Positions 1 to 37,204 of a stretch of DNA of 37,204 nucleotides are shown piece by piece. Where the stretch lies: the IMG/VR virus record IMGVR_UViG_3300042466_000302, positions 1-37,204 of that record; one strand, written 5' to 3'. Numbering within the stretch: the stretch's first letter is position 1; each line of letters opens with the position of its first letter. The notes below the pieces were generated by a model. It worked only from the letters and a program-made list of their open reading frames with translations, was not told the DNA's origin and ran no database searches. Source of the DNA: a virus. Both the position numbers and the translations under genes were made by a program.

Positions 1-86
1 CAGCAACAGCGTGAGCAGCCTCAAGTCGTGCAACGAATGTTTCAGGTCGCAATGTACCCTTGAAGAAACGCAACTCAATCGTGTTG
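1..86. repeat. Overlap copy 1 of the circular genome
   Basis: These 86 bases are identical to 37119-37204. An amidoligase reading frame continues across the join in the same phase, so the match is best read as the assembly overlap of a circular or circularly permuted genome. The true unit length is then 37,118 bp. It is too short to be taken as a biological terminal repeat without read data. Confidence 0.95.
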
Positions 87-1028
87 CGGTTCTGCAGATT
101 CAGTGCAACATAACGGTCATTGTTGCGGACATGAGAGCCAAGGCTAAGACCCTTGGTGTACTCAAGCATGCGTGTGAGTTCATACTCAGACCAGTCAGCA
201 TAGGTGGAGTGACTGCGACCAGCAATCTTTTTCCACTGCTCACTGTTGCGATAGAACATTGACATGAAGCGGTACATCGTGGTTGGGTTCTTGCCAAAGA
301 AGTCCTTGTTGATATGAACATGCAATCCACAAGTACGAGTGTTAGCAGAACGCATACCAAGTTGTGACAACTCTTTGAGTCGTTGCCATGGGAACTTCTC
401 TGTAATGAACTCACGAGACAATGGGTGAGAGACCATCTCGAAACCATTGGACAATGAGCCGTCATGCTTGAGGTAGCACCACTCGCCGTACAAATTGTTG
501 GCAAGTTCAGCACCATCGCTGGCGTCGCAATCAACTGCTTCCATCTCCAACTCAAAACCAGTCACGGTCTTGAAAGGATTAGATACGCCAGTCAAGTCAG
601 TAACACCTGAGCGAACGAAGTGGAAGATTGGTGCAGGACGGAACGAGTAATCGTTAATCAAGCGTGAACCCATCTCGTCACAACTCTCGCAACTGTCGTT
701 GGTGTTGTAGTAGCGGTCGTGTTCGTAGCAGTGTTCGTAGTTGTCTTCGCAACTGCCACACACATGAACGCCGTTCCAGTCGTCAACGCATACACCCTCG
801 TTGTCGCCATTGTATGCGGTGCCACAGTCGTTGCATGTGTACATGCAGTCGTGACATGATTCGCACAAGTTGATTGTGACCTCGTGACGACGCAAGTGGT
901 AACGCTGATATGTTACCTCGTGCATCTCGTCTTCGGGATATGCATCACAGCACCACGAACATTCGACCTCTTGCGGTTCTTCATCTTCGGGCTCGTCGTT
1001 GACTGGGTTTTCATTGATGTTTGTCATT
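1..1028 (-). CDS. Amidoligase, N-terminal part (gene crosses the circular join)
   Basis: This is the first part of a roughly 385-residue protein completed at 37118-36988. Residues 23-118 are rich in paired cysteines (CSWCC, CESC, CNDC, CGSC, CESC) and look like zinc ribbons. From residue 157 the protein matches the putative amidoligase family (PF12224, glutamine-synthetase fold): GFELEME near 157, HDGSL near 188, then GLHVHI near 234. That family is predicted to use ATP to form amide or isopeptide bonds. A good Shine-Dalgarno (AAAGGAG) precedes ATG 1028, but that ATG hits a stop after five codons. Removing one T from the run at 1020-1023 restores a 386-codon frame exactly. Without a frame change, the first in-frame ATG is at 925 and would cut off the first cysteine group. 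The operon continues into a class II glutamine amidotransferase. The substrate is unknown. Confidence 0.8.
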
Positions 1029-6860: not shown

Positions 6861-8758
6861 TGGCCCGTCCAACACACCGTAGCACTCTAGCTAACTACCG
6901 AGGGAAGATTGATAATTCCCGCAAGTGGCGCAAAGAAGAAAAGTACGATAAACTTTGGCGTCGAATGATTGACCTGTATAGGGGCAAGCATTTTGACCAG
7001 GTATCGTCTGAAGACCAAATGCTGGTTAACGCTGCATTTTCTACCATTAACGTTATCGCACCGAGCGTCGCAGTAAACCACCCCAAAATTACTGTCGGCG
7101 CTCGTAAACCTGAAGATGGCGATAAAGCCATCATTACCGAAGCTATCATTAACTATTGGTGGCGTCACTTTGATTGTCAGAAACAACTGCGTCGAGCAGT
7201 TGATGACTATCTGATTATTGGGCACGGCTGGCTTAAGGTTGGATATAAGTTTGTTGAAGAAGAACGCAAAAAGCCTGCTTTGCCGGCGATGCAGCAGCCA
7301 CAGTCTGATGCTCCATCACCTGGTGAAGAATCGCCCGACATGGAAGATGCATCTTCTGATTTGGATTCAACGGCTGAAGAAGCTCCAATGGAAACAGAAA
7401 TTGTTATTACAGAGGACCGCCCATTTGTTGAGCGTGTTTCTCCGTTTGACGTTTTCGTAGACCCTGATGCAACCTCTATTGAGGATGCAAAGTGGATTGC
7501 ACAGCGTGTACGCCGTGGACTGTTGGAAGTTCGCAATGACCAGCGCTATAACCGCCAAGCACGTAATGATGCACAAGCCAGCCAATACAACAAGTGGTCA
7601 GCACATGAGGACCGTCCTCGTGCAACAAAAGAAGACAAAGATGCATATGTTGATGTGTGGGAGTTTTACGACATGAAGCGTGGAACAATGTCGGTGTTCT
7701 GCAATGGTTCAGATGGTTTCCTTGTAAATCCGGTTCCAATGCCATACGCATTTGGACATCCATTTGTCATGCTGCGTAACTATGACGTTCCTGAGCACTT
7801 CTATCCTATGGGTGAACTTGAAGCTATTGAACCTCTTCAGTACGAGCTTAATGCTACACGTACACAGATGATGAACCACCGTAAGCGTTTCTCACGCAAG
7901 TGGCTATACAAGGAAAACGCATTCGACACACCAGGACGTGACGCTCTTGAATCCGATGAGGACAACGTAATGGTGCCCGTCATCAGCGATGAACCTTTGC
8001 AGTCAGTTGTGCAAGCTATGCCAGCTATTGTCAACCCTCCCGACATGTATAATTTAACTAATCAGATTATGGGTGACATGGACCGTGTTTCGGGTGTTGC
8101 AGAGTTCATGCGTGGCGGTTCGTCTGAAATCAGCCGTACCGCTACAGAATCTGCGATGATGCAGGATGCTATGAACGCACGCACATCGGATAAGCTTGCT
8201 GAGGTTGAACGTGCTATTGCATCTTCTGCCAAGCGTCTTATTGGATTGGCTCAGCAGTTTATGACCGGTGAGCATGTTGCTCGTGTTGTTGGTTCTTCTG
8301 CTATGCCTATTTGGGTTAACTTTGACCGTGATTATATTCTTGGCGAGTTTGACTTTGAAGTTGAAGCTGGTTCTACACAACCAGTGAACGAGTCGTTCCG
8401 TCGTCAAATGGCATTGCAGATGGTTGACGCTATGGCTCCTTTTGTTGGTGCTGGTGTTGTTGACATGTCTGCTTTGGCTCGACACGTATTGCAGTTCGGC
8501 TTTGGTGTTAAAACACCTGAAGCTTTCCTTGCACAACCACAACAGCCTGGTGCTGTTGGTCCTGATGGTCAACCTATGCAGGGTCCACCGCCCGAGCAAG
8601 GTCCACCACAAATGGAAGGTCTTCCAGCGGGGCTTGACCCTGCTGCGATGATGGAGGGCGCACCACCGCAGGGTGGTATGCCACAACCTACTGGTATTCC
8701 ACCGCAGGTTCTTGCTATGTTGCAGAACCAAGGCGCTGGCTTGCCTAATACAATGTAA
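6860..8758 (+). CDS. Portal protein
   Basis: This is the dodecameric ring at the capsid vertex through which DNA passes and onto which the tail builds. The 632-residue length, the position between terminase and scaffold, and the sequence fit podovirus portals: MIDLYRGKHFDQ near 37, INVIAPSVAVNHPKI near 63, WLKVGYKFVEEE near 125. An insert at about 135-185 is rich in Pro, Ser, Asp and Glu. The last 90 residues are Pro/Gly/Gln-rich (repeats of QGPP and PPQ), as in barrel or tail extensions of large portals. The start overlaps the preceding stop. Confidence 0.9.
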   Translation: MARPTHRSTLANYRGKIDNSRKWRKEEKYDKLWRRMIDLYRGKHFDQVSSEDQMLVNAAFSTINVIAPSVAVNHPKITVGARKPEDGDKAIITEAIINYWWRHFDCQKQLRRAVDDYLIIGHGWLKVGYKFVEEERKKPALPAMQQPQSDAPSPGEESPDMEDASSDLDSTAEEAPMETEIVITEDRPFVERVSPFDVFVDPDATSIEDAKWIAQRVRRGLLEVRNDQRYNRQARNDAQASQYNKWSAHEDRPRATKEDKDAYVDVWEFYDMKRGTMSVFCNGSDGFLVNPVPMPYAFGHPFVMLRNYDVPEHFYPMGELEAIEPLQYELNATRTQMMNHRKRFSRKWLYKENAFDTPGRDALESDEDNVMVPVISDEPLQSVVQAMPAIVNPPDMYNLTNQIMGDMDRVSGVAEFMRGGSSEISRTATESAMMQDAMNARTSDKLAEVERAIASSAKRLIGLAQQFMTGEHVARVVGSSAMPIWVNFDRDYILGEFDFEVEAGSTQPVNESFRRQMALQMVDAMAPFVGAGVVDMSALARHVLQFGFGVKTPEAFLAQPQQPGAVGPDGQPMQGPPPEQGPPQMEGLPAGLDPAAMMEGAPPQGGMPQPTGIPPQVLAMLQNQGAGLPNTM

Positions 8759-19609: not shown

Positions 19610-19629
19610 CGATTTAAACATATAGTATG
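19607..19629 (+). promoter_or_regulatory. Repeated late start element, copy 4 (before the giant gene)
   Basis: The stop TAA begins TAACGA, then TTTAAA, CATATAG, T and ATG 19627. It has the same order as copies 2 and 3. The distance from ACGA to ATG stays at 14-16 bases in all four copies even though the CATATAG part shifts. No ribosome site is present before the largest gene of the genome. Confidence 0.55.
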
Positions 19630-22600
19630 GCTAATCCGTATACAGACATACGGGCTATCACTGCCCGTCTTGGGCAGGTTCAGCCCCGTGGAATGTCCAC
19701 CTCTGGTGGGCTGAATCCGACTACCCCTACTAAGTCTGACGAAGCAATTAAGCTTGGCCGAGCAGCTAATAAGTTTGCTATTCAGAACCCACAGTTGCGT
19801 GCACAGATTGAGTCTATTGCCAGTGGTTCCCGCAATGAACAGCCTAGTGGTTTTGTGGGTACTGTTCTTGGAAACCCTGTTGCGAAGACAGCGTTGAGAG
19901 GTCTTGAGGCTTTTACTATTCCTGGTCGTGCTGTTGTTTCTGTTGCTCGTGAACTTACTGACGCTGTTGACGGAAATGACCAAACAAAGGCCAGCTTTGG
20001 TGACTTTGGTAGGCAGGTCAAAGATTCGCAGTTTGGTTTCGGTAAAGCATTCAAGATTGATACTGGAAACATTTGGCTGGATAGGGCTATTGGTTTTGTT
20101 GGTGACGTTGCTCTTGACCCATTGACGTATGCAACTTTCGGTGCGTCTGCCGGTATTAGGGGTGTTGCTGGTTCTGCTAAGGCTGGAAACTACGCCAACA
20201 AGATGACCCTTGCTGCTAAGGTTTTGGAGAATACTGGCGACGCTGCGCTTGCTGCTAACGTCGCCCGTCGTGGTCGTGTTGCTTTGCGCAACAACCCCGA
20301 AGTTCTTGAGAGGGTTGGTGCCAACAAGTTTGGTGTTTACTTCTTTGGTAAGCGTGTCAAGGTTGGTAAAGACGGTATGGGTTGGCGTGTTCCCCTTAGT
20401 GGAACCATCGGTGAGATTGGTGAAGCTGCTCTTTCTCGTGCTCGTCTTGGTTTAACTAACACACGTCTTGGTAAGTATCTTCAGAAGATGACTATGCCTA
20501 AGGATTTCTTGGAGATGCGTCTTGGTGTTGCTCGTGGAACTTTAAATCCTGAAGATGCAGCTGATGCTTTGAAGTTGTTTCAAATTGTTCCCAAGCAACG
20601 TTTGGCTCGTGCTACCGCACAGCAAACTCTTGAACAGCAGTTGATGGGTATTCTCAAGTCTGAGGAAACAAACCTTGAGGCTTACCGCAAGTCTGTGTAT
20701 AAGTTTATTGAGGACCCTACTCGCTTGGCTGCTGCCAGCGAAGCCGAGAAGCGTGCATACACTGTATGGAAAGCTTTCTTGGATGAGCAGTTTGAGAGGG
20801 TTTCTACTTCATGGAAGAATGTTGACGAGGCTGCAGAGATTGGCAGGACAGAGAATTATTTCCCTAGAGTTCGCAGTGATGAAGCTCAGAAGTATATGGA
20901 CTCTGACGCCAATTTCGCTTCTGATGTTCGTGATATTTACATGGATGACCCTTTTGCTTTGCCTGGTGCTTTTACTCCTCGTTCTTTACGTCCGGGTAAA
21001 AAGTGGTTTGGTTATATCTTGCAAGAAACAGATATGACTACGGAGAGGTTGAATCAAATTGCTCGTACTCATGGTGGTATTGATTTTGATTTCTTTGAGA
21101 CGGATGTTGTTGACGTTATGCGCAAATACATCTCGGACACTGCTGACGAACTTGGTATCATTCAGCGTAATGCTGATTTAAAGGATACTGGATTCTTTAG
21201 GCGTATCGAGGAACAGCGCATCCGGGAACTTGAAATTGACGAGGATGATGTTGCTTCTGCTCGTGCTTTCTTGGATGAGCAGAACAACATGATGGTTGGT
21301 GTTGAGCAGGATTTCCGCAAGGCTGTTACTGACCTTGTTGATAATGTTCGTGCTGAACAGGCTCGTGTTTCCCAGGGTCTTGCTACTGGTGAGCGTTTGG
21401 CTCAGGACATGAGTAGGTACTTGTATGACATGATGGATGATGTTGCTCGCAAGTCTGACTTTATTGCTGGGTTGCGTCAACGTCTTGTTCAGTTGTGGGG
21501 TCAAGAGACTGACATTCCTTTGTATGCTCTTAGCGATGATTTCCCTGTTATGTTGCGTCCTGTTCTTGGACAGTTTGACCAAATGGTTAACGACTTGAAT
21601 GATTTTAATGTAATCATTAGCGATTTGCATGCACAGTCCATGAAGACTGGTTATGATGCTTACGCTGCTGAGGAAGCGTTGCGTCAGATTGAAGAGGGTG
21701 CTAACGCTGCTCATGCTGCTATGAAGGATGCACAGGAGTCGATTCGTTCGGCTATGGAGCTTTCTAACGTTATTGAGGGTGCTTGGGATTCTGTTGTTGC
21801 GGGTCGTTCGCCTCGTGTTGGTGGTACGGCTGCTCAGAAGGTTATTAAAGATATTGTTGATATTCTTGCTTTGCGTAAGTCTTCTACTGGTCAGAAGGCA
21901 CAGGTTGCTAGAGCCAAGGCTGTTGGTGTTAGTGGTGCTTTAAAGACTTTCTTGAGTGACGCTTTAGACCCTAGCAAGGTGAATAGTCCTGTTGCTGATT
22001 TTTATAAATCTTTTTGGGATGAAATTGCTGGTGCTGGACAATCAGGTATTGCACCAACCAGCGTTTCACGAATGACTGAAGATAGATTTTTTGAAATCAT
22101 CTTAAGTGCTGCTTCTCCTGACACAAGCATTGCTGATTTGCGTGCTGCTGCTGCATACGCTATTGGTCGTGACATTCGTCTTCATCAAGCGACAAAGGTT
22201 GAGGACCTTCCAAGATTTGTGCGTCGTTTCCATGAGGACCTTAAGAACATGCTCAAGGAAGCGGAGTTTGATGAGGCTGCACGTATTGCACGTGGAAAGT
22301 CAAGCAAGAATCTGCAGACTCAATTAGATAATCTTAAGAACCGTTGGGGCGCCGACTATGAGGCTGCTGTTACGATGAAGAACGACCTGGATGAGTTGGA
22401 TGGTGTTGCTCGTTTTGTTGATGATGGTTTCTCTGCACAGTTTGGCGAGGGTTGGGCTGATGTCGAGTTTACTGATGCTTTGATTCCTGCTTTGGAGCAG
22501 GGAATCTCTGACGGTGCTTCTAAAGCTTCACGTCTTCCTTGGTTGTATGAGTATATTGATAATGCGGATACAGTCCTTGGTAAGCAGACTGGTGATGTTG

Positions 22601-25600
22601 TTACTTTGGGCGAGGTTATGGAGCATGTTAAGAGACGTGCCGACCTTCTCCGCAAGTCATACTATGAGGACACTGTAGAGATTGAAGACGTAATTAGTGC
22701 GAACCTTTTGTCGGGACAGGGCAGCCGTGGTGCTACTCGGACTACTCGTGATGCTTTTGTTTCCAACTATGAGTCTAAGGTTCGTCAGGCTCGTAAGGTG
22801 GCTGACGCAGAGGCTCGTGTTCCACAGTATAGTCGTGGTGTTAAAGAGAAGCTTCGTACTGCCGATACTGCTCGTGCTAATCTTTCTGAAAGTCTTGTTC
22901 ATTACCAGGCTGTTTCTGATGCTGTTCAGAAGTTTGAGGCTATCTCTGGTGTGTTAGCCCCTCATGGTCTTGTGCCCACCGAGGACATGTGGCGTGGCAT
23001 TATGCGCACTGTTGCTGACCAGTATGGTTCTCAGTATTCCGACAAGGTTCGTCGTATTATTGCCGGAGAAGAAAAGTTTATGGAACTGTATGCTGACTTT
23101 GCGAAGAAGCTTCAAGAGATGAAGCGTCTTCCAGCGGAAGAGCAGATTCCTGTTTCTAGGTTGTTTAAAGAAGTTCTTGATGGTTTTATGTCGGGTGAAG
23201 ACGCTGAGCTTATGCGTGAGTTGCTTGGGCCTACTATGAGTCGTATGGTTGACAAGGCTGACATGCGTCTTGACATTAAGACTTTAGAGTCTGCGGTTCG
23301 TACGGCAGGCACAGAGGCGGAGAAGCAGGCTGCTAAGGTTCGTCTTGATGATTATATTCGTAATTATGTTATTCCTTGGGCTAAGGATGTTGACCCTACT
23401 ATTCGTGCTGACAAGAAACCGGCTGTTGACCTTCTTAAGGAACTGACAAGAAATGAAGAGATTTCTACTAGGGCTGTGAGCAAGGCCACTCTTCGTAAAT
23501 TCCGCACTCCTTTGAGCCGTGATGCTTCCGAGGAGGACATTTATCGTTGGCTTAACTCTATGATGAAGACGGTTGACCCTGCTACTGGCGAGACTGTTTC
23601 TCCTGGTGCTATTGCTAGGATGCGTGATTCGTATCAGGGTACCGAGATTTTCTTCCGTCGTATGAAAGACGGATACATTGATGTGGAGTCTTTCTTTGCT
23701 ACTCTTGATGGTTCTGCTGATACTCCTTCGGGTTATGCTGTTCAGATGATTGAGCTTGCCAATAGGCTTGATGGTGCTACTGTTCTTTCTGAAGAGAATC
23801 CTTTTATTCGTGGTTCCATGTTGGAAGCTGTTGGACCTAACTATCGAAAAGCATACAAAGATGGTGCCAAGGTGGTTAGCCGTGCAGAGGCGGAAGCAGC
23901 GGAGGCTGCCGAGCTGGCTGGTGTGGCACGAGAAATTGCTGACGCATATTCTAATCCCAACTTAACTGTCGACCAGCTGAAGGAGCTTGGTTTCACTAAG
24001 GCTATGATGGCCGAGCGTGAAGAGGTTTTGGCTGTGGAGCGTTTTGATGCTTCTATTGAATACGCTAACGCACTTAAAGACCAAGAGATGGTTTCTTTCT
24101 TGGATTCTGTTGCTGGTGTTAACTTCGCACAGTTTGATGAGGGTATTGTTGTTGGGACTAATCGTGTAGAAAAGTTTGCTGATGATTTTATTTCTGAAAC
24201 GGCTGGTAGTGTTGAAGCTGAAGTTAGTGTTCTTCAGCGTAAGCTTGAAGAGGTAGCTAGGTTTGAGGCTCAGAGTCGTGCCAAGGTTCTTGAACCGTAC
24301 ACGGTACAACGTGATGGTAAAACAACATGGAAGAGCGCAGAGCATAAGCGTGCTGCGCAAATGAAGCTTGACCAGTGGGCAAGCATGGAACAGGGCAAGT
24401 TCAGAAGTGAAACTGCAAGACTTCAGGGCCTGATTGACACTGCAGAACAACGTGTAACTGCATCTACCCGTGAGTCTATAGGTTTTGATGTTGTTCCTGT
24501 ATTCGCTAAAATGCCTGATGGTTCTGTTATTAAGTTTACACAGGCAGAGTGGGATTCTCTTTATATCCCACCATACAGCCAGGCTGGTCTTGCAGAAACT
24601 GGGCGTACTACCCGTGCCTTGATTAAGGAACGAAAGGATGTTCAGGAACTTTTAAACAGGGCTGTTGATAATTCGGCCAGCACTTGGGACCCTGCGAAGA
24701 AGGCGTATATACGCCGACTTCAAAAGCGCATTGAAATTCTTGATGTAAAAATTAAAGCTTCAGAGCTTGAGATTGAACGCAACATGAAGGTTGTTCGCAA
24801 CTCTGCCCTTGAGAAAGTTCGTATTCTTGTTAAGCAGTTGCAAGAATCAACACCACAAGATGGTGGTGTTCACTGGATGAACCAATGGCAGGACGTTGCG
24901 GACCAACTTGGTGCAAGAACACGTGAATCTGGAAACGTTATTATTGACGAAGACTGGACCAAGGTTCTTCCTTACAGTGTTATTCCTGATGCTGGTGGAC
25001 AGGTTAAACGTGCCTACGCAAACACAACACTGTCTTACTACTTTAATGTTTTAAAGCGTAGTGATGACTCTATGACTGCTGTCCCTCAGGCTTGGGGTAT
25101 TGTAGAGAATGGCATGCAGAAGCGTCGCAACTCTCTTCAGGCCATGTGGCGTAGCAACAAGTCTCATGCCGTATTGGAACAACGTGAAGAACTTGTTCGT
25201 GCTGCTGCTTTGACAGCATATGATGACTTTGAAAAGTATGCCCGTATGTCTGCTAAGGCTTCTGCAGAGGCACGCAAAGCTGCTGACCGTACTCGTGTCG
25301 CTGTCGACGATGTTCAGGAGTCCTTCCGTAAAGCTGTTATTGAGATGCGTAATGCAGAACTTCAGGCAGCTAAGGCTGCTGGCGCTACGTTTGATACCAA
25401 GACTCCGTTTTGGTCCACGAATACAGAGGTTAACTATACTCTTAATGGTAAGGTCTATAGTGTTCCTTCTGTTGCTGACATGTTAGCTGACCCTGCTAAG
25501 TATGCGAAGAAAGCAAGGCAACGTGGTGACTTGTTCTTTGACTTAAAGAAACCTGGTAATGTCGTAATATTTAATGAGGCTAACGAGGCTACCCGTGCGT

Positions 25601-27624
25601 CTATTGCTTTGTTTGGTATGCAGAATGTTTTGATGCGGGAGTCTGCTGATTTGTTTGAAGCTGGTGTTGTTAATCCTTCTTTTGCTAGAAGCAACGAAGT
25701 ATACAACTTGATGGTTCAGTGGTCCGAGGATGCTAAGACTTTGGCTGACAACATTAACTCTGTTCGTCAGGCTGTTGCTGCTGAAAGAGCAAACATTCAG
25801 GAAGACATCAGAAGAATGGCTGGCGACGTGTATACATATGATACCGGCGTTCCAAAGAAAGCACCTAAGCCGATTAGGGGACCACTTAGTGATGACCAGG
25901 TTCAGAAGCTTCTTGATGCGCCAACTAAGTCTGTTGAAACAATTAAGCTTGATGTGTTTGAGTTTGCTGCTGAACTTCGTGCTACACTCGACGACTTTGA
26001 CCCATCGGTTGAACTTAGTGTTGACGGCATGATGCAAATGGAAACTTTGATTTCCAATTTGCGTAAGCGTGCAAACATTATGGAACGTGTTGTTCAGGGA
26101 ATGCCAAGTGGGGCTGATACAGCGGCGTTGAATGCTTCTAAGAAGCCTGCTACTCGTGCTAGGTGGATGCAGGTTCATCTTGATTGGATTAATGGTAATC
26201 GTTCTGCTTTGCGTGCCCTTGCTCAGGCTGACCTTGCTGACCCGGGCGAGGCTCGTATTTGGAATGCTTTCTTGAGTGCGTTTGCTGCTGAGGGTAGGTT
26301 TACTTTGCAGGAGGGCCGTGTTGCTGCTGCTCGTTCTGCTTTGGACACCGCACAGGCTGGCACGTATGTCGAGAAGGTGTTGGACCCTGCTTCTAAGAAG
26401 TTCCGTGATGCAGCGAATGAAATTCTCGAAACACAGGGACGCACTATTGCGGATGACTTCAACATGCCTAGCTATTCTGTTAGCGCACCGTTGAATGAGA
26501 TTATGAACAACCTTGCCCGCATTAATGATGGTGCTATTCTTCGTGAACTTGGTGGTTTCATGAGTTCATATACTGGTTTCTTCAAGGCTTACGCTACTCT
26601 TAGCCCCGGGTTCCATGTGCGCAACTCCATCAGCAACAGCTTCCAGTTGTTTGCTGCTGGAGCTGAAGTGAAAAACATGAAGGCTGGTTTGAAGTTGTGG
26701 CGTTCTCTTGGTGAACATGTGAGAGATGGTGGAACTTTGGAAAGCTGGCTTGCTAGCGGTGCTGTGCCTGCGGGTATGGAAACGCAAGCACGTATCGCTG
26801 GAGAGGTTGCATTGGCTTTGGGTGGCGGTAAGACTGATGATGCTTTTGCCGAGTTTGTTGGTATGGGTAAGAACGTGCTTACAGATAACCCTGCTACTCG
26901 TGCTTCACGTAGCTTTGGTCAGCGTGTTGAGGGTTCTGCTCGTTTCATGTTGGCGTTTGACTCCGCTGTCAAGGGAGATACTTTCAATGAAGCATTTAAC
27001 CGTACTAGCCGTTTCTTGGTTGACTACAACAACCCAACGTTGTTGGATGAATCGGTTCGCAATATCCTTCCGTTTTGGACTTGGATGAGCCGTAACCTGC
27101 CGGTGCAGATTACAACACAGTGGACTAATCCTAAGCCGTATGTTGTGTATCAGCGTTTTGTAAACAACTTTAGCACCGAAGAGGACGAGCAGTTGCCTCC
27201 GTACTTGAGGGACAAGAATCCTATTCAGATTGGCAAGGGTACGTTCCTTGCTCCTGACCTTCCGTTCATGGCTGCACAAGAAACAATCAATCTTGCCAAT
27301 AACCCACGCAAGGCTTTGTCGATGGTTAACCCTGGCTTGCGTGTTCCTTTGGAACTTGCTGGTGGTAGGACTTTCTTTACTGGTCGTGAGTTTGGTAGCG
27401 AACCTGGCCAGCAAAGCGCTATGAGTTACTCGGCGCAGAACTTGTTGCCGATGCTTGGACAGATTGACCGCATCACAGACATGAGTGCTGGTTCGGACCA
27501 ACTTGGTTTGGCAAGATATCTTGGTGTACCTATCAGAGGTATGACCGAAGAGAAGCGCAACAACGAACTACAAAGACGATTGATTGAACTTCAACAACTA
27601 CAAAGAAGGACTGAGGGGTCTTAA
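19627..27624 (+). CDS. Giant internal virion / polyvalent-type protein, 2665 aa
   Basis: This one gene takes about one fifth of the genome. The N-terminal 150 residues include WLDRAIGFVGDVALDPLTYA near 150, a segment I associate with giant phage virion proteins. RTENYFPRVRSDEAQKYMD occurs near 412. Most of the protein is long charged helix. The C-terminal 350 residues hold FKAYATLSPGFHVRNSISNS and, near 2480, ILPFWTWMSRNLPVQI, a motif shared by large polyvalent and internal proteins of podoviruses. It may be injected, like T7 gp16, or carry enzymatic domains too diverged to name. I found no lytic transglycosylase, polymerase or protease motif. The reading frame is intact throughout. Confidence 0.8.
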   Translation: MANPYTDIRAITARLGQVQPRGMSTSGGLNPTTPTKSDEAIKLGRAANKFAIQNPQLRAQIESIASGSRNEQPSGFVGTVLGNPVAKTALRGLEAFTIPGRAVVSVARELTDAVDGNDQTKASFGDFGRQVKDSQFGFGKAFKIDTGNIWLDRAIGFVGDVALDPLTYATFGASAGIRGVAGSAKAGNYANKMTLAAKVLENTGDAALAANVARRGRVALRNNPEVLERVGANKFGVYFFGKRVKVGKDGMGWRVPLSGTIGEIGEAALSRARLGLTNTRLGKYLQKMTMPKDFLEMRLGVARGTLNPEDAADALKLFQIVPKQRLARATAQQTLEQQLMGILKSEETNLEAYRKSVYKFIEDPTRLAAASEAEKRAYTVWKAFLDEQFERVSTSWKNVDEAAEIGRTENYFPRVRSDEAQKYMDSDANFASDVRDIYMDDPFALPGAFTPRSLRPGKKWFGYILQETDMTTERLNQIARTHGGIDFDFFETDVVDVMRKYISDTADELGIIQRNADLKDTGFFRRIEEQRIRELEIDEDDVASARAFLDEQNNMMVGVEQDFRKAVTDLVDNVRAEQARVSQGLATGERLAQDMSRYLYDMMDDVARKSDFIAGLRQRLVQLWGQETDIPLYALSDDFPVMLRPVLGQFDQMVNDLNDFNVIISDLHAQSMKTGYDAYAAEEALRQIEEGANAAHAAMKDAQESIRSAMELSNVIEGAWDSVVAGRSPRVGGTAAQKVIKDIVDILALRKSSTGQKAQVARAKAVGVSGALKTFLSDALDPSKVNSPVADFYKSFWDEIAGAGQSGIAPTSVSRMTEDRFFEIILSAASPDTSIADLRAAAAYAIGRDIRLHQATKVEDLPRFVRRFHEDLKNMLKEAEFDEAARIARGKSSKNLQTQLDNLKNRWGADYEAAVTMKNDLDELDGVARFVDDGFSAQFGEGWADVEFTDALIPALEQGISDGASKASRLPWLYEYIDNADTVLGKQTGDVVTLGEVMEHVKRRADLLRKSYYEDTVEIEDVISANLLSGQGSRGATRTTRDAFVSNYESKVRQARKVADAEARVPQYSRGVKEKLRTADTARANLSESLVHYQAVSDAVQKFEAISGVLAPHGLVPTEDMWRGIMRTVADQYGSQYSDKVRRIIAGEEKFMELYADFAKKLQEMKRLPAEEQIPVSRLFKEVLDGFMSGEDAELMRELLGPTMSRMVDKADMRLDIKTLESAVRTAGTEAEKQAAKVRLDDYIRNYVIPWAKDVDPTIRADKKPAVDLLKELTRNEEISTRAVSKATLRKFRTPLSRDASEEDIYRWLNSMMKTVDPATGETVSPGAIARMRDSYQGTEIFFRRMKDGYIDVESFFATLDGSADTPSGYAVQMIELANRLDGATVLSEENPFIRGSMLEAVGPNYRKAYKDGAKVVSRAEAEAAEAAELAGVAREIADAYSNPNLTVDQLKELGFTKAMMAEREEVLAVERFDASIEYANALKDQEMVSFLDSVAGVNFAQFDEGIVVGTNRVEKFADDFISETAGSVEAEVSVLQRKLEEVARFEAQSRAKVLEPYTVQRDGKTTWKSAEHKRAAQMKLDQWASMEQGKFRSETARLQGLIDTAEQRVTASTRESIGFDVVPVFAKMPDGSVIKFTQAEWDSLYIPPYSQAGLAETGRTTRALIKERKDVQELLNRAVDNSASTWDPAKKAYIRRLQKRIEILDVKIKASELEIERNMKVVRNSALEKVRILVKQLQESTPQDGGVHWMNQWQDVADQLGARTRESGNVIIDEDWTKVLPYSVIPDAGGQVKRAYANTTLSYYFNVLKRSDDSMTAVPQAWGIVENGMQKRRNSLQAMWRSNKSHAVLEQREELVRAAALTAYDDFEKYARMSAKASAEARKAADRTRVAVDDVQESFRKAVIEMRNAELQAAKAAGATFDTKTPFWSTNTEVNYTLNGKVYSVPSVADMLADPAKYAKKARQRGDLFFDLKKPGNVVIFNEANEATRASIALFGMQNVLMRESADLFEAGVVNPSFARSNEVYNLMVQWSEDAKTLADNINSVRQAVAAERANIQEDIRRMAGDVYTYDTGVPKKAPKPIRGPLSDDQVQKLLDAPTKSVETIKLDVFEFAAELRATLDDFDPSVELSVDGMMQMETLISNLRKRANIMERVVQGMPSGADTAALNASKKPATRARWMQVHLDWINGNRSALRALAQADLADPGEARIWNAFLSAFAAEGRFTLQEGRVAAARSALDTAQAGTYVEKVLDPASKKFRDAANEILETQGRTIADDFNMPSYSVSAPLNEIMNNLARINDGAILRELGGFMSSYTGFFKAYATLSPGFHVRNSISNSFQLFAAGAEVKNMKAGLKLWRSLGEHVRDGGTLESWLASGAVPAGMETQARIAGEVALALGGGKTDDAFAEFVGMGKNVLTDNPATRASRSFGQRVEGSARFMLAFDSAVKGDTFNEAFNRTSRFLVDYNNPTLLDESVRNILPFWTWMSRNLPVQITTQWTNPKPYVVYQRFVNNFSTEEDEQLPPYLRDKNPIQIGKGTFLAPDLPFMAAQETINLANNPRKALSMVNPGLRVPLELAGGRTFFTGREFGSEPGQQSAMSYSAQNLLPMLGQIDRITDMSAGSDQLGLARYLGVPIRGMTEEKRNNELQRRLIELQQLQRRTEGS

Positions 27625-28145
27625 TGGCTAAGTTAACATATCCAACAAAACGACTGATTGTGCCTGAGGCGCTTGGTCGCATCCCAAGTGGGAAGCTCCC
27701 CGCTGGTTTGATGGGCAAGTGCAAGGCTGGTGGATGGCTGTACCGTCCGGCTGCTAAGTCATTTAACGAGATGTATAAGCACGCCTTGTCGTGTGGCATC
27801 AAGCTTAAATCTATCGGTTCTTATCGTTCGTATGAGAAGCAGTATGATTTGTTTATCAGCAGATACAGCCTGAAGGATACTGGTCGTGTTCCACAGGTGA
27901 CCCGTAAGTTTGATGGTCGTATTTGGTACCTGAAGAAGGGTATGTCGCCGGCAGCGACTCCTGGTGCTTCTAATCATGGTTATGGTTTAGCGATTGACCT
28001 TGACGTGACGAACCCTAAGGTGTACGCATGGCTGGACATGCACGCTCCGACGTATGGTTTTTATTTGCAAGGCAAACCGACGTTGCCGAATGGTAAGAAG
28101 AACCCTGAGTTTGAGGCTTGGCATTGGCAAAAAGTTGATGCCTAG
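27624..28145 (+). CDS. M15-family peptidase endolysin (VanY/D-Ala-D-Ala carboxypeptidase type)
   Basis: This is a predicted zinc peptidase cutting the peptide stems of peptidoglycan for lysis. It shows the M15 signature: SYRSYEKQYDLF near 66-77, SNHGYGLAIDLD (His118, Asp125) and EAWHW (Glu164, His167), which supply the zinc ligands and catalytic acid. At 173 residues it is a single catalytic domain without a signal peptide or visible wall-binding module, so a holin would be needed. It is the last gene of the late unit, coupled to the giant gene by TAATG and followed by the bidirectional terminator. Confidence 0.9.
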   Translation: MAKLTYPTKRLIVPEALGRIPSGKLPAGLMGKCKAGGWLYRPAAKSFNEMYKHALSCGIKLKSIGSYRSYEKQYDLFISRYSLKDTGRVPQVTRKFDGRIWYLKKGMSPAATPGASNHGYGLAIDLDVTNPKVYAWLDMHAPTYGFYLQGKPTLPNGKKNPEFEAWHWQKVDA

Positions 28146-28613: not shown

Positions 28614-28795
28614 TCCGTACCTTCGGACTCCTTACGCATTGCCTCTTCAATAGTTGTGGCTGCTGCAACAATCTGTTCTACAGATGTTGGTCCGAACTTA
28701 TCTTCAAGGAATGCAATCAAAGCAAAGATGTTTGATACGACCCAGTATTGGTCGATTGATTGTTCGGTGTTATTCGTGGGTTCCGGTGTTTCCAT
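28610..28795 (-). CDS. Small acidic protein of unknown function, 61 aa
   Basis: TAGGAG stands six bases before ATG 28795, inside the end of the upstream sigma4-DUF1599 gene. The protein has an acidic N-terminus (METPEPTNNTEQSIDQYW), a hydrophobic helix (VVSNIFALIAFLEDKFG, 19-35) and an acidic tail. The middle helix is too charged at its end to be called a membrane anchor. No family is recognised. Confidence 0.6.
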   Translation of the reverse strand: METPEPTNNTEQSIDQYWVVSNIFALIAFLEDKFGPTSVEQIVAAATTIEEAMRKESEGTE

Positions 28796-29594
28796 CGTAG
28801 TCTCCTAATTCAAGATTGAAAGTATCGTCTAGTATCATTAGAGCAATCACGCAGTATCCAACGATATCCATAAGTGTATCATTCGTTGACTCGTGGAATG
28901 CTTTTGCATTTTTATTTTTTAAGTTTTCTAGGCGTTCAATTTTATCGCTGAGTCGAACGATTACTCCGTACATTCCGAAGCGGTTAATGTTGCCGTGGCC
29001 GTAGTCGTGTTGCTTACGGCACAGGGTGGCTACCATTTCGCCTGTGTCCCAAATCTCCATCATGCGCATCTCGTTGATTGCTGAGATGGCGATGTCGGTG
29101 AAGGTTTCCTGCTTGACCATTATCTCACGCTCGGTTCTGTACACCGCCTCCAGGGCGGTGATATAGGAGCGCATACGTTCAACGTCGATGCGTTCTGTGT
29201 TGTCTACACCTGCCATGTACATCACCCATTGCATGGCTGATTGTTCCCATGTGTCTGCTAGTCGGATTGCTTTACGGATTGTTGTGTCTGTTGACATTGC
29301 TACCTTTAGTTTTTCGAACGCCTGATTGCGCAGACGCCATACGTGTGTTTTGGTCATGTTTAATTCGTCGGCAATCTTCTGTAAAGATTTGCCTTCGCTT
29401 ATACATGCGTTGATTATCCACAGGTCTCGTGGTTCTAGGTCGTCAACTATTGATGCTACGGCTTCCCGTAGCACCAGTAGTTCCTCGTTTGAAGTTGGTG
29501 GTTCTTCAAATGGTTTGGTTTGCATCAGCGCTTCCATATCCGTATCGGGACTGCGGTCGGCTGTTGTTCTTGCGGGTCTAAACTCATTCATCAT
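28770..29594 (-). CDS. Fusion of sigma-region-4-like HTH and DUF1599 (nucleotide-modification-associated) domain
   Basis: Residues about 50-98 read as a sigma-70 region-4 helix-turn-helix: LEPRDLWIINACISEGKSL, then QKIADELNMTKTHVWRLRNQ and AFEKLK. No region 2 is present, so it is not a complete sigma factor. Residues 185-257 fit DUF1599, also called nucleotide-modification-associated domain 1: CRKQHDYGHGNINRFGMYG, VRLSDKIERLENL, and NDTLMDIVGYCVIALMIL. This fold is all-helical. The combination suggests a DNA-bound regulator that senses or handles nucleotides. It could drive phage promoters such as the repeated start elements, but that is inference. The start overlaps the upstream nuclease gene by 11 bases. 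Confidence 0.75.
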   Translation of the reverse strand: MMNEFRPARTTADRSPDTDMEALMQTKPFEEPPTSNEELLVLREAVASIVDDLEPRDLWIINACISEGKSLQKIADELNMTKTHVWRLRNQAFEKLKVAMSTDTTIRKAIRLADTWEQSAMQWVMYMAGVDNTERIDVERMRSYITALEAVYRTEREIMVKQETFTDIAISAINEMRMMEIWDTGEMVATLCRKQHDYGHGNINRFGMYGVIVRLSDKIERLENLKNKNAKAFHESTNDTLMDIVGYCVIALMILDDTFNLELGDYDGNTGTHE

Positions 29595-34279: not shown

Positions 34280-34460
34280 TGGCTACCAGCCTCTCGTGGG
34301 CTGTGGCGACCTTGTACGCTTCAATGGTGTACCACAGGGCGTCCATGGCGTCGTAGATTGTTTCTGACTCTTCCATGTTGTCTCCCCAGCGGTCTAGTGC
34401 GTCACCCAACAGGTTGCTGACAACGAGTGATGCTTTAATGATTTCTTCTGTGTGGTTCAT
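34272..34460 (-). CDS. Small acidic protein of unknown function, 62 aa
   Basis: The frame is open further upstream, but ATG 34460 with GGAGA before it and an ATGA overlap with the Rpf-like gene stop is the natural start. The protein is helical and acidic ([20 protein letters not shown]). Its coupling to the Rpf-like gene raises the possibility that it controls or helps that protein, for example as an inhibitor inside the cell. No family is recognised. Confidence 0.65.
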
Positions 34461-35020
34461 TTGTTTCTCCAAGCCGACCAAGGGTTCGGCACCGTAGGTT
34501 TTAAGTGTTTGTTGTTTTTGATACATCCCCAGCCGAGGAATCCGACCGGCTGTTGGAATACACCATCTTGTCTTAGGAAGCCGTGCAAAGCAGCACGGTT
34601 GGCTACTATGATTTGTTCTTCCCGTGTAGCACCTTGTGGTCGTCCTGCGAACTGTCTGCCACCGAACGCCCTCCAAGTGGGTACGTAGATACCAAGTCCG
34701 CCACCCCACATGCCAAGGTCTTGCCAATTTCCTCCAGTCTCACACTGAGCAACAGCATCCCAATATGAATCCTTTGGAGTTCGTAGCGTAGCGAGCCATT
34801 CCATCGGCCACGCATTTGGCTCGGTCTGCGGTCGTACTGTGGTACTGGTAGTGCTTGTCGTTGTTGCAATGGCAAGTATGTCAGTAGATGTTTCGGCATT
34901 TGGTTCCTGTGTTGTTGTGGAACTCCCCACGCTTGGGGAGTTTGGTTGACTGGTTTGGTTTAGGTGTACACTGATTACAGCGAGAGATGACAGAAGTATT
35001 CTAAGCATCCGGCATCTCAC
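34457..35020 (-). CDS. Exported Rpf-like transglycosylase
   Basis: Residues 1-20 form a short signal peptide or anchor (basic start, then [13 protein letters not shown]). Residues 21-65 are a Ser/Thr/Pro linker, as in secreted wall proteins. Residues 86-167 match the resuscitation-promoting-factor transglycosylase domain: [13 protein letters not shown] with catalytic Glu94, [26 protein letters not shown] and a late GWGC. Cys93 and Cys166 could form the domain's disulfide. Rpf enzymes cut peptidoglycan glycan strands and are typical of Actinobacteria, including in waking dormant cells. GTG 35020 and ATG 35008 are both possible starts. Hairpin H5 lies inside the linker codons. Confidence 0.85.
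34921..34942 (-). repeat. Hairpin family member H5, inside the Rpf-like gene
   Basis: AACTCCCC (34921-34928) and GGGGAGTT (34935-34942) enclose ACGCTT. The arms equal those of H4. Here the sequence is translated as part of the Ser/Thr linker (NSPSVGS), the only member inside a coding region, so its sequence is free to vary at little cost to the protein. Confidence 0.8.
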
Positions 35021-35219
35021 TTAATGCTCTAGACATAGAGTGTCCAAACTTGTTGTTGGCTGACATAAGAATCATGAGTTCCTCCTGAACGTCGGTGTGG
35101 TATTTGGTTGATGTAAGTCTATCAAGTTTCTTTGATAGTTGGTCACAGCCGATGCTGAGCGACTTCATGACGGCACGAAGTTCGTCAAAGGATAGTTCTG
35201 TGTAGATTTGTGGTGTCAT
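35001..35219 (-). CDS. Small helical protein of unknown function, 72 aa
   Basis: The ATG at 35219 follows AAGG at a normal distance. The protein is acidic-basic mixed and almost entirely helical ([37 protein letters not shown]), probably a small helical bundle or coiled coil. The stop overlaps the start of the Rpf-like gene, so the two are co-translated. No family is recognised. Confidence 0.65.
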
Positions 35220-35260: not shown

Positions 35261-36049
35261 TTAGAACGGTTCTACCCGTGTGTTGACGTGGGTGATAGGC
35301 AGACCGTCCTCAAACAACCCGTCCATCATGGTGATAGCAGACTGGCGAACAGCATTAGCGAAGTCGTCGTTACGGGCGCTGTCCATGTTTGTGCGTGCCT
35401 CGTCAATCACACGGCGCATGGTTGCGTGTGGCAACATCGGAAGCATCACATGACCGTTATCACGCCCGTCAGTATCGAGATGACGACAGGTGTCGTACAG
35501 GCTGTTGTTGCTTCTGACTGCACGCCATGAGTTAGCCCAGTTAGACAGAGCCTCAGTCATTGACTCAAGGCGACCAGTAAGCCACACATTAGGACGACGA
35601 CGATGCTCACTAGCAATAGCAGTCTTGTATTGGTTGATACCGCTGTATGTAAGTTTGTAGTCACTCACTGTGCTTTGAATTGTCAGTTCGGGCTTGTTGT
35701 AGACGCTGTTGCGCAGTTCCTCAGACATGAAGTGAGCCATTCGTTCTGCAGCGTTGTTTGCAGCCCACTCATCATTGGTGAGCATGTCGTAGCGCACATG
35801 AAGAATAATCATTGCTTCATGCTTGACTGTTGGTACTGGTGTTGGTGTTGTTTCTACGGTCATTGGTGTCTCCTGTTGTATTGGGTTGATTTGTATTTCG
35901 GGGATGTCGTACCAGTTCGGGTTGCGTTCACGCATTGCGCTAGCACGAGCCATCAGGGTACGGGTGTAGTCGGTTGCTGTGTTGATGACGATGGGCAAAC
36001 CATCGGCGTCATACTGAAGCGGTGCTACATGTGGTCTTGTGTGTGGCAT
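35261..36049 (-). CDS. Protein of unknown function in the amidoligase cassette, 262 aa
   Basis: I do not recognise this protein. Its ATG overlaps the amidotransferase stop (TAATG), so it is co-translated with it. Residues 55-75 are a Thr/Pro linker (TPMTVETTPTPVPTVK). The following part is alpha-beta (AMIILHVRYDMLTNDEW, TIQSTVSDYKLTYSGI), and the C-terminal 100 residues are helical and charged. It has no cysteine cluster or membrane segment. As the third gene of the cassette it is a candidate partner, carrier or target of the amide-forming enzymes. A ring or virion role cannot be excluded. Confidence 0.7.
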   Translation of the reverse strand: MPHTRPHVAPLQYDADGLPIVINTATDYTRTLMARASAMRERNPNWYDIPEIQINPIQQETPMTVETTPTPVPTVKHEAMIILHVRYDMLTNDEWAANNAAERMAHFMSEELRNSVYNKPELTIQSTVSDYKLTYSGINQYKTAIASEHRRRPNVWLTGRLESMTEALSNWANSWRAVRSNNSLYDTCRHLDTDGRDNGHVMLPMLPHATMRRVIDEARTNMDSARNDDFANAVRQSAITMMDGLFEDGLPITHVNTRVEPF

Positions 36050-36984
36050 TAGAAGAAGTCAATCACACCGTCATAGTTACCACGCTGTAAAGCAGCAGGA
36101 ACAAGACGGTCGTTCTCAAACTCGTCAATGACATTGGACTGTGGTTCGTAGCAAGTGCACAGCAGACGCTCTGACTCGCAGAACCAGCACGCATCGCATT
36201 GCGGACACAAGTCGGCAAGGTCGATGTTCATGTCGTCGTAATACTCCTGATAGTCACAGTGCGCACATGTCCACAACTCGCCCCACACTTCGTTGCCGTC
36301 AGCGTCTACATAAGAGCAGTCAATGACCTTGTTGGGTGAGTCGTAATAGTCACGAGGCACATAAATCTCGGCGTCAGTCTTCTTGGTCCAACCGCTGGTG
36401 TACATACCTGAACCGCTGTATGAATAGCGAGCGTAGGTGTAACTGTTGTTTGACCACCAAACACCATCGGTGTCGTAGTGACCGTCCTTCTCGTTGATGA
36501 TAGTGAAGTCATTCTGCACATCAGGGTTAGCGGACAGGAACACCAACTTAGAACCAGTCGCAAACTTGGACATCTTCTTGCGCATCTTCTTGCTGTTGAG
36601 AATAGATGAACCACCCATCTGTGGAATCATCTCCTCAGCGAAGATACGAGTGTCGGACTTGCCGTTCTTGGCGTCGATAGGAAGCATGCCGTTGTGTGCC
36701 ATGACAGTTTGTGTGTCACGACCAACTTGGAATGGATGACAGTTATCAACCGAGGTGCCACCGTGCGTTGTGATGCGAGAGTGGAACAACGCTGGGCCAC
36801 TATGCTTTGCACGCACAGCCATGAACTCGTCAAGGATTTGGTCGAAGTTAAGACCACTGTTGTGAACGATGGAAGTACCAGCGTGAACAGCGTAACCGAA
36901 ACCATCCGGATTGTTGTATGCACCATTCGTCAAGTCGTCGATGGTTGGTGTTGTGTATTCAGGAATAAAAGTCAGCAAGCACAT
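36049..36984 (-). CDS. Class II glutamine amidotransferase with zinc-ribbon tail
   Basis: The N-terminal domain fits an Ntn-type glutaminase that frees ammonia from glutamine. Cys2 becomes the catalytic N-terminal cysteine after Met removal. NPDGFGYAV (25-33), SRITTHGG (69-76), NCHPF (81-85) and AHNGML (96-101) are the class II motifs in order. The C-terminal 75 residues carry paired cysteines (CAHC 240-243, CPQC and CWFC 260-269, CTC 276-278), a zinc-ribbon pattern shared in style with the amidoligase N-terminus. The start lies three bases after the amidoligase stop. No synthetase domain is fused; the amidoligase next door is the obvious partner. Confidence 0.85.
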   Translation of the reverse strand: MCLLTFIPEYTTPTIDDLTNGAYNNPDGFGYAVHAGTSIVHNSGLNFDQILDEFMAVRAKHSGPALFHSRITTHGGTSVDNCHPFQVGRDTQTVMAHNGMLPIDAKNGKSDTRIFAEEMIPQMGGSSILNSKKMRKKMSKFATGSKLVFLSANPDVQNDFTIINEKDGHYDTDGVWWSNNSYTYARYSYSGSGMYTSGWTKKTDAEIYVPRDYYDSPNKVIDCSYVDADGNEVWGELWTCAHCDYQEYYDDMNIDLADLCPQCDACWFCESERLLCTCYEPQSNVIDEFENDRLVPAALQRGNYDGVIDFF

Positions 36985-36987
36985 TGC

Positions 36988-37204
36988 TCAGACCCCCTTT
37001 GCGTCAGCGTATGTATTGAAGTTTGTGTATGTTTTTTGTTGGATAGTCCATTCACGGAACCTATCCCAGTCGTGGGCTGCTTTGATAGAGACAGAGTTGC
37101 GAGTGGCGTATGCATACTCAGCAACAGCGTGAGCAGCCTCAAGTCGTGCAACGAATGTTTCAGGTCGCAATGTACCCTTGAAGAAACGCAACTCAATCGT
37201 GTTG
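36988..37204 (-). CDS. Amidoligase, C-terminal part (continues at position 1028-1)
   Basis: This part encodes the last 67 residues after the join plus the 29 codons repeated in the overlap. The segment ELRFFKGTL, just at the join, is the C-terminal signature of the amidoligase family (T-I-E-x-R-x-F-x-G-T-L), followed by a helical end closing YADAKGV. The stop TGA (36990-36988) is three bases from the amidotransferase ATG. The frame agrees with the part at the left end of the window, which supports a closed circular genome. Confidence 0.85.
   Translation of the reverse strand, partial: NTIELRFFKGTLRPETFVARLEAAHAVAEYAYATRNSVSIKAAHDWDRFREWTIQQKTYTNFNTYADAKGV
37119..37204. repeat. Overlap copy 2 of the circular genome
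   Basis: It is identical to positions 1-86. It should be trimmed before any count of genes or genome length. Confidence 0.95.

Follow-up and report, generated by a model that had tools for sequence, protein, structure and literature searches.

The window analyzed in this study is a stretch of viral DNA of 37,204 nucleotides (IMG/VR record IMGVR_UViG_3300042466_000302), in which an amidoligase gene and a class II glutamine amidotransferase (glutaminase) gene adjoin each other on the minus strand and are followed by a third open reading frame (ORF) (Table 1). An exact repeat of 86 bp is present at both ends of the contig (1-86 = 37119-37204), which makes the contig circular or terminally redundant, with a circular unit of 37,118 bp, and the amidoligase gene is split by the cut between the contig ends. 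Rejoined (1027 to 1, then 37118 to 36988), the gene encodes a protein of 385 amino acids. The original prediction, made by a model from the letters and a list of ORFs, had already placed a split gene here; however, it had set the start at 1028, whereas the ATG lies at 1027. The tight coupling that it described was found as stated, with a gap of 3 bases between the ligase and glutaminase genes (TGA GCA ATG) and an overlap between the glutaminase gene and the third ORF.

Table 1. Features of the amidoligase–glutaminase locus in the window.
Feature	Position	Strand	Basis or remark
Amidoligase, N-terminal 342 codons, ATG at 1027	1..1027	-	Profile matches, model, alignment
Amidoligase, C-terminal part including stop, across the circular junction	36988..37118	-	End repeat
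Left copy of the end repeat	1..86		Right copy 37119-37204
Class II (N-terminal nucleophile, Ntn) glutamine amidotransferase, 311 amino acids; Cys2, Arg70, His83, Asn98-Gly99, Asp111; C-terminal Cys ribbon C240-C278	36049..36984	-	Profiles, alignment
Third ORF of 262 codons, sharing one base with the glutaminase stop (TAATG)	35261..36049	-	Clade-restricted
Third protein from internal start Met63, likely the main product	35261..35863	-	Shorter relatives begin there
AGGAG Shine-Dalgarno sequence of the internal start	35870..35874	-	In 9/9 sequences examined
72-amino-acid protein, encoded by the next conserved gene in the block	35001..35219	-	Neighbourhood comparison
Rpf-like transglycosylase, end of the conserved block	34457..35020	-	PF06737; top NCBIfam hit RpfC, under the cut-off

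The amidoligase is made up of Cys-rich ribbons at approximately residues 23-116 and a glutamine synthetase-fold domain from approximately residue 150. It matches PF12224 (Amidoligase_2) at 33.3 bits, above the curated cut-off of 22, as do 20 of 21 relatives, and it also matches phrog_16683 (2e-37) and, strongly, phrog_22302. A search of its sequence profile against the PDB returned only chance-level matches (zinc fingers, cytochromes). An AlphaFold model, with 67 sequences as input, was made for the ligase of a related locus (L002), which is 97% identical to the window protein, and reached a mean predicted local distance difference test (pLDDT) score of 88.5. The top Foldseek matches of this model were YbdK, glutamine synthetase, gamma-glutamylmethylamide synthetase and Dop, and every match at E<1e-3 was either a carboxylate-amine ligase of the glutamine synthetase fold or Dop; among viral models, the L002 ligase was paired with named phage amidoligases and a protein of the type found in phage Marvin. 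With this confident model, the ligase is predicted to have the glutamine synthetase/YbdK/Dop ligase fold, and the amidoligase identity originally proposed for it is upheld.

The positions expected to be catalytic have been maintained. Residues E159, E161, K187, D189, S191, E197, H236, H238, R271, N310, E318 and R320 are kept at 99-100% in 83 viral sequences, including the putative metal- and ATP-binding acidic and basic motifs ExE, D-G-S, H-x-H and ExR. Over 182 distinct relatives nearly all putative catalytic positions remain at 98-100%, the exception being G190 (99% in viral sequences, 68% overall). The N-terminal CxxC ribbons are retained in approximately 90-97% of relatives, and the ratio of nonsynonymous to synonymous substitution rates (dN/dS) is 0.06-0.25. 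It is predicted to be an ATP-dependent amide ligase.

The glutaminase scores 22.5 bits against PF13230 (GATase_4), just below the cut-off of 23; 21 of its 22 relatives match this family at E<=0.01 (best 1e-9). Furthermore, it matches phrog_25883 at 1e-35, and its profile aligns with the structures of GlmS (1xff) and PurF. In viral sequences C2, R70, H83, N98 and G99 are kept at 100% and D111 at 96%, and the class II pattern holds at 96-100% over 183 distinct relatives (glutamine-binding R70 and oxyanion N98 and G99 at 99-100%, glutamine-binding D111 at 96-98%), as expected from the full set of class II motifs first read from the sequence. Cys2 directly follows the start codon in 183 of 183 distinct sequences, a count that leans towards its result because starts were picked where a start codon followed by Cys lies close to the beginning of the profile; other comparisons show Cys2 independently. 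Approximately 93-96% retain the C-terminal ribbon C240-C278, and dN/dS is 0.08-0.12. This enzyme would hydrolyze glutamine and transfer the ammonia to the ligase. The Cys-rich regions noticed early in both enzymes exist and are conserved, and they probably bind zinc, with a role in docking or in recognition of the substrate. Taken over both enzymes, the putative sites stand at 96-100% in the 83 viral sequences and the fold is matched, so that neither of the findings named beforehand as fatal to the proposal (no match to the glutamine synthetase/amidoligase fold, or loss of active-site residues in most relatives) was obtained.

The partnership of the two genes is constant. When viral sequences were scanned with the glutaminase, 27 loci were found, all 27 with the ligase directly upstream. 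A separate viral scan with the ligase alone gave at least 569 confirmed matches, and the glutaminase adjoins the ligase in 80 of the best 80, a set biased to close relatives. A scan of 84,980 bacterial and archaeal genomes with the glutaminase profile returned 61 loci, nearly all in Actinomycetota and mostly in Nocardia. The pair is present at 60 of them, typically with a gene overlap of 13 bases, and two tandem pairs occur at 41 of the 60. An additional, unpaired copy of the ligase is present at a few of these loci (L115-L172, from Nocardia and other Actinomycetota). In an Amycolatopsis locus (L174), one ORF (7449-8408) matches both the ligase and glutaminase profiles; this apparent fusion is probably a decayed or frameshifted pair. 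Neighbours of the bacterial loci include Prim-Pol, DprA, DUF4192 and DUF2786 and, by eye, ParB-like and SSB-like genes, which suggests that these loci are mobile elements. The pair was also found on plasmids of M. intracellulare and M. abscessus, and outside Actinomycetota, for example in OM43 phages and Rhodobacteraceae. No PADLOC-DB model was matched at E<=0.01 by the ligase, the glutaminase, the third protein or the 72-amino-acid protein, and a known anti-phage defence system was rejected as the identity of the locus on this basis.

The third ORF matched no known family in profile searches, and its structure model (mean pLDDT 53.6) was too weak for a fold search. The 262-residue protein first described corresponds to a 262-codon ORF, the main product of which may be a protein of approximately 200 amino acids starting at Met63. 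The internal AGGAG-ATG (codon 63, 35863) is retained in 5 of 5 long versions at the start site of the short versions, so that the 62-residue leader is an addition. This leader is itself conserved (65-76% identity versus 44% for the remainder), and two protein forms are possible. The third gene evolves faster than both enzymes (dN/dS 0.18-0.41), and the dN/dS values of the three genes indicate that they are not chance ORFs. Close homologues at the equivalent position are confined to the nearest phages, with weaker positional homologues in L006, L043, L045 and L046, some recognized by position and weak similarity only, and nearly all relatives have the pair without it. A neighbourhood survey, proposed with the original prediction, thus confirmed constant pairing of ligase and glutaminase, but co-occurrence of the third family in the closest clade only. 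Judged by this distribution, the third protein belongs to this phage's clade as an accessory and is not a required core partner, and the suggestion that it is a general target or carrier was not sustained.

From its encoded protein families, the genome is that of a tailed phage. It encodes an SU10-like portal, capsid and adaptor, a terminase and collagen-like tail proteins, in addition to a DnaB-like helicase, an AEP-type primase, RusA, a PD-(D/E)XK nuclease and a VanY peptidase. A search of a phage collection by DNA with the first 20 kb of the window gave no close relative. A single ORF of 2,665 amino acids (19627-27624, +) takes up more than a fifth of the genome, and its product probably resides inside the virion or is ejected from it. 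The ORF at 28770-29594 (-), assigned by inspection, combines a sigma-70 region 4-like N-terminus with a DUF1599 'nucleotide modification associated' C-terminus. Two cell-wall enzymes lie far apart on opposite strands, namely a VanY-like peptidase (27624-28145, +, placed by inspection) and the Rpf-like transglycosylase. The latter points to an actinobacterial host; together with WhiB-like neighbours recognized by eye in related phages, it agrees with actinobacterial hosts.

Class II glutaminases free ammonia for a partner, and ligases of the glutamine synthetase fold activate carboxylates with ATP. The fold, the conserved active sites, the constant partnership and the mobile-element distribution of the pair were all established by computation. 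The two enzymes are considered, with somewhat better than even confidence and leaving the substrate aside, to form a two-part, glutamine-dependent amide synthetase. In the proposed reaction, the glutaminase, its N-terminal Cys exposed after removal of Met, would hydrolyze glutamine and pass ammonia to the amidoligase. With ATP and Mg, the amidoligase would turn a carboxyl group of an acidic substrate into an activated acyl phosphate and then into a primary carboxamide. An isopeptide joining two larger molecules needs no glutaminase. Since the glutamine-binding residues are retained, ammonia is the most likely donor, and a primary amide, the simplest joint product of the pair, is the most likely outcome; of the amide or isopeptide originally envisaged, the former is thus favoured and the latter is not. 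With active sites of both partners untouched in those examined among the viral matches, the pair must pay.

The substrate and the benefit of the pair are guessed. The leading guess, which commands about a third of our belief, is an acidic group in the envelope of the actinobacterial cell, such as the stem peptide, whose modification during infection would blunt competing mobile elements or their lysins. The envelope is preferred because several kinds of mobile element share the pair and because a wall enzyme lies in the same block. A modification of the wall by phage phiEco32 has been proposed in the literature, as cited in PMC10580990, and the roles proposed for other phages are protection from superinfection through a changed cell wall, production of secondary metabolites or a part in nitrogen metabolism (PMC10580990 among the sources).

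Several points weigh against this interpretation. The ligase model reaches modest template modeling (TM) scores (0.3-0.4) against solved structures, in line with a remote similarity of fold and the presence of an additional Cys-rich domain. Zinc binding is deduced from Cys spacing alone. Conservation of the neighbouring transglycosylase, and of the block to which it belongs, ends with this clade, which makes the link to the envelope weak, and no demonstrated activity or substrate was found for any member.

Alternatively, the target may be a protein of the host or the virion, in which the ligase would amidate carboxyls of side chains or of the C-terminus, in the way that PafA and Dop, enzymes with this fold, act on Pup. 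The presence of Dop and PafA among the fold matches, the conserved Cys ribbons on both partners, which suggest docking to a macromolecule, and the apparently actinobacterial main hosts all fit a protein target. However, the neighbourhoods link no target protein to the pair, the third gene being clade-restricted, and the members outside Actinomycetota fit poorly; a protein target is considered unlikely. The pair could instead be auxiliary metabolic genes whose products amidate or conjugate a small molecule, to supply nitrogen or to yield a secondary metabolite, along the lines of some of the literature proposals. Yet no ATP-grasp, glutathione-synthase or cyclotransferase gene was seen by inspection among recurrent neighbours in related phages, and large conserved Cys ribbons would be odd for such an enzyme; this explanation is also given only a small chance. 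As a bolder extension of the two-part synthetase, the Cys-ribbon pair might serve actinobacterial mobile elements in general as a weapon, in phages and plasmids as well as in Nocardia elements, which often have two tandem copies. It would amidate one shared host target to exclude rivals or disarm the host, a suggestion regarded as a long shot. Candidates for this target include the stem peptide of the cell wall and the glutamate at the C-terminus of Pup; amidation of the latter would reverse Dop and shut down pupylation. Modification of nucleic acids or nucleotides, with the ribbons binding DNA or RNA, is very improbable: ribbons are found on both proteins, they weakly resemble zinc-ribbon RNA-binding proteins (E>=0.27, not significant) and a DUF1599 domain is encoded elsewhere in the genome, but the pair has no conserved nucleic-acid gene next to it, and the families listed for the remaining ORFs of the window include no base-modification pathway (thymidylate-type hydroxymethylase, QueC, FolE); DNA hypermodification, likewise without a supporting pathway among these families, was rejected.

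These results give function names to three PHROGs listed as unknown (16683, 22302 and 25883). They also define a Cys-ribbon subfamily common to phages, plasmids and element-like loci of Actinomycetota; no description of this subfamily as such, or of the tandem pairs of Nocardia, was found in the open literature searched.

Among known systems, YbdK, glutamine synthetase and Dop-PafA have a predicted fold in common with the window ligase at a sequence identity of 8-14%; none of them is known to work with a separate class II glutaminase. MurT-GatD combines a Mur ligase fold with a class I-like glutamine amidotransferase fold, and thus differs from the window pair on both sides and is not related by family. 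It works alike in principle, with a glutaminase and an ATP-dependent ligase producing a carboxamide in peptidoglycan (PMC3267633).

Phages that combine an amidoligase with a class II glutaminase were already known, among them Marvin and the OM43 and LUZ24-like phages. In LUZ24-like phages such as UFV-P2 (ORF23/25/28; PMC3890496) a PF12224 ligase and a class II glutaminase are likewise present, but an HNH endonuclease lies between the genes, and an ATP-grasp enzyme and a second COOH-NH2 ligase lie nearby; partners of this type (ATP-grasp, gamma-glutamylcyclotransferase-like) are absent from the families listed for the window and, by inspection, from the recurrent neighbours in relatives. In the OM43 phages MEP401/402 (PMC10580990) a PF12224 amidoligase adjoins a class II glutaminase as in the window, although the ligase is 20% identical to the L002 protein, the glutaminase is without the C-terminal Cys ribbon and the host is a methylotroph. 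The closest likeness is to Marvin, one of 19 records of this type found in mycobacteriophages, in which gp105-gp106, both deposited as 'glutamine amidotransferase domain protein', have the same gene order, both families (phrog_22302/16683 and phrog_25883) and full active sites, with 40% identity across the glutaminase domain. Marvin differs in its ligase of 453 amino acids and its host Mycobacterium smegmatis, and no third protein of the window's kind was found after its pair. By sequence comparison, the window pair is a further member of this Marvin-type family, and Marvin, grown on M. smegmatis mc2 155, is a cultured phage in which the pair is open to direct testing.
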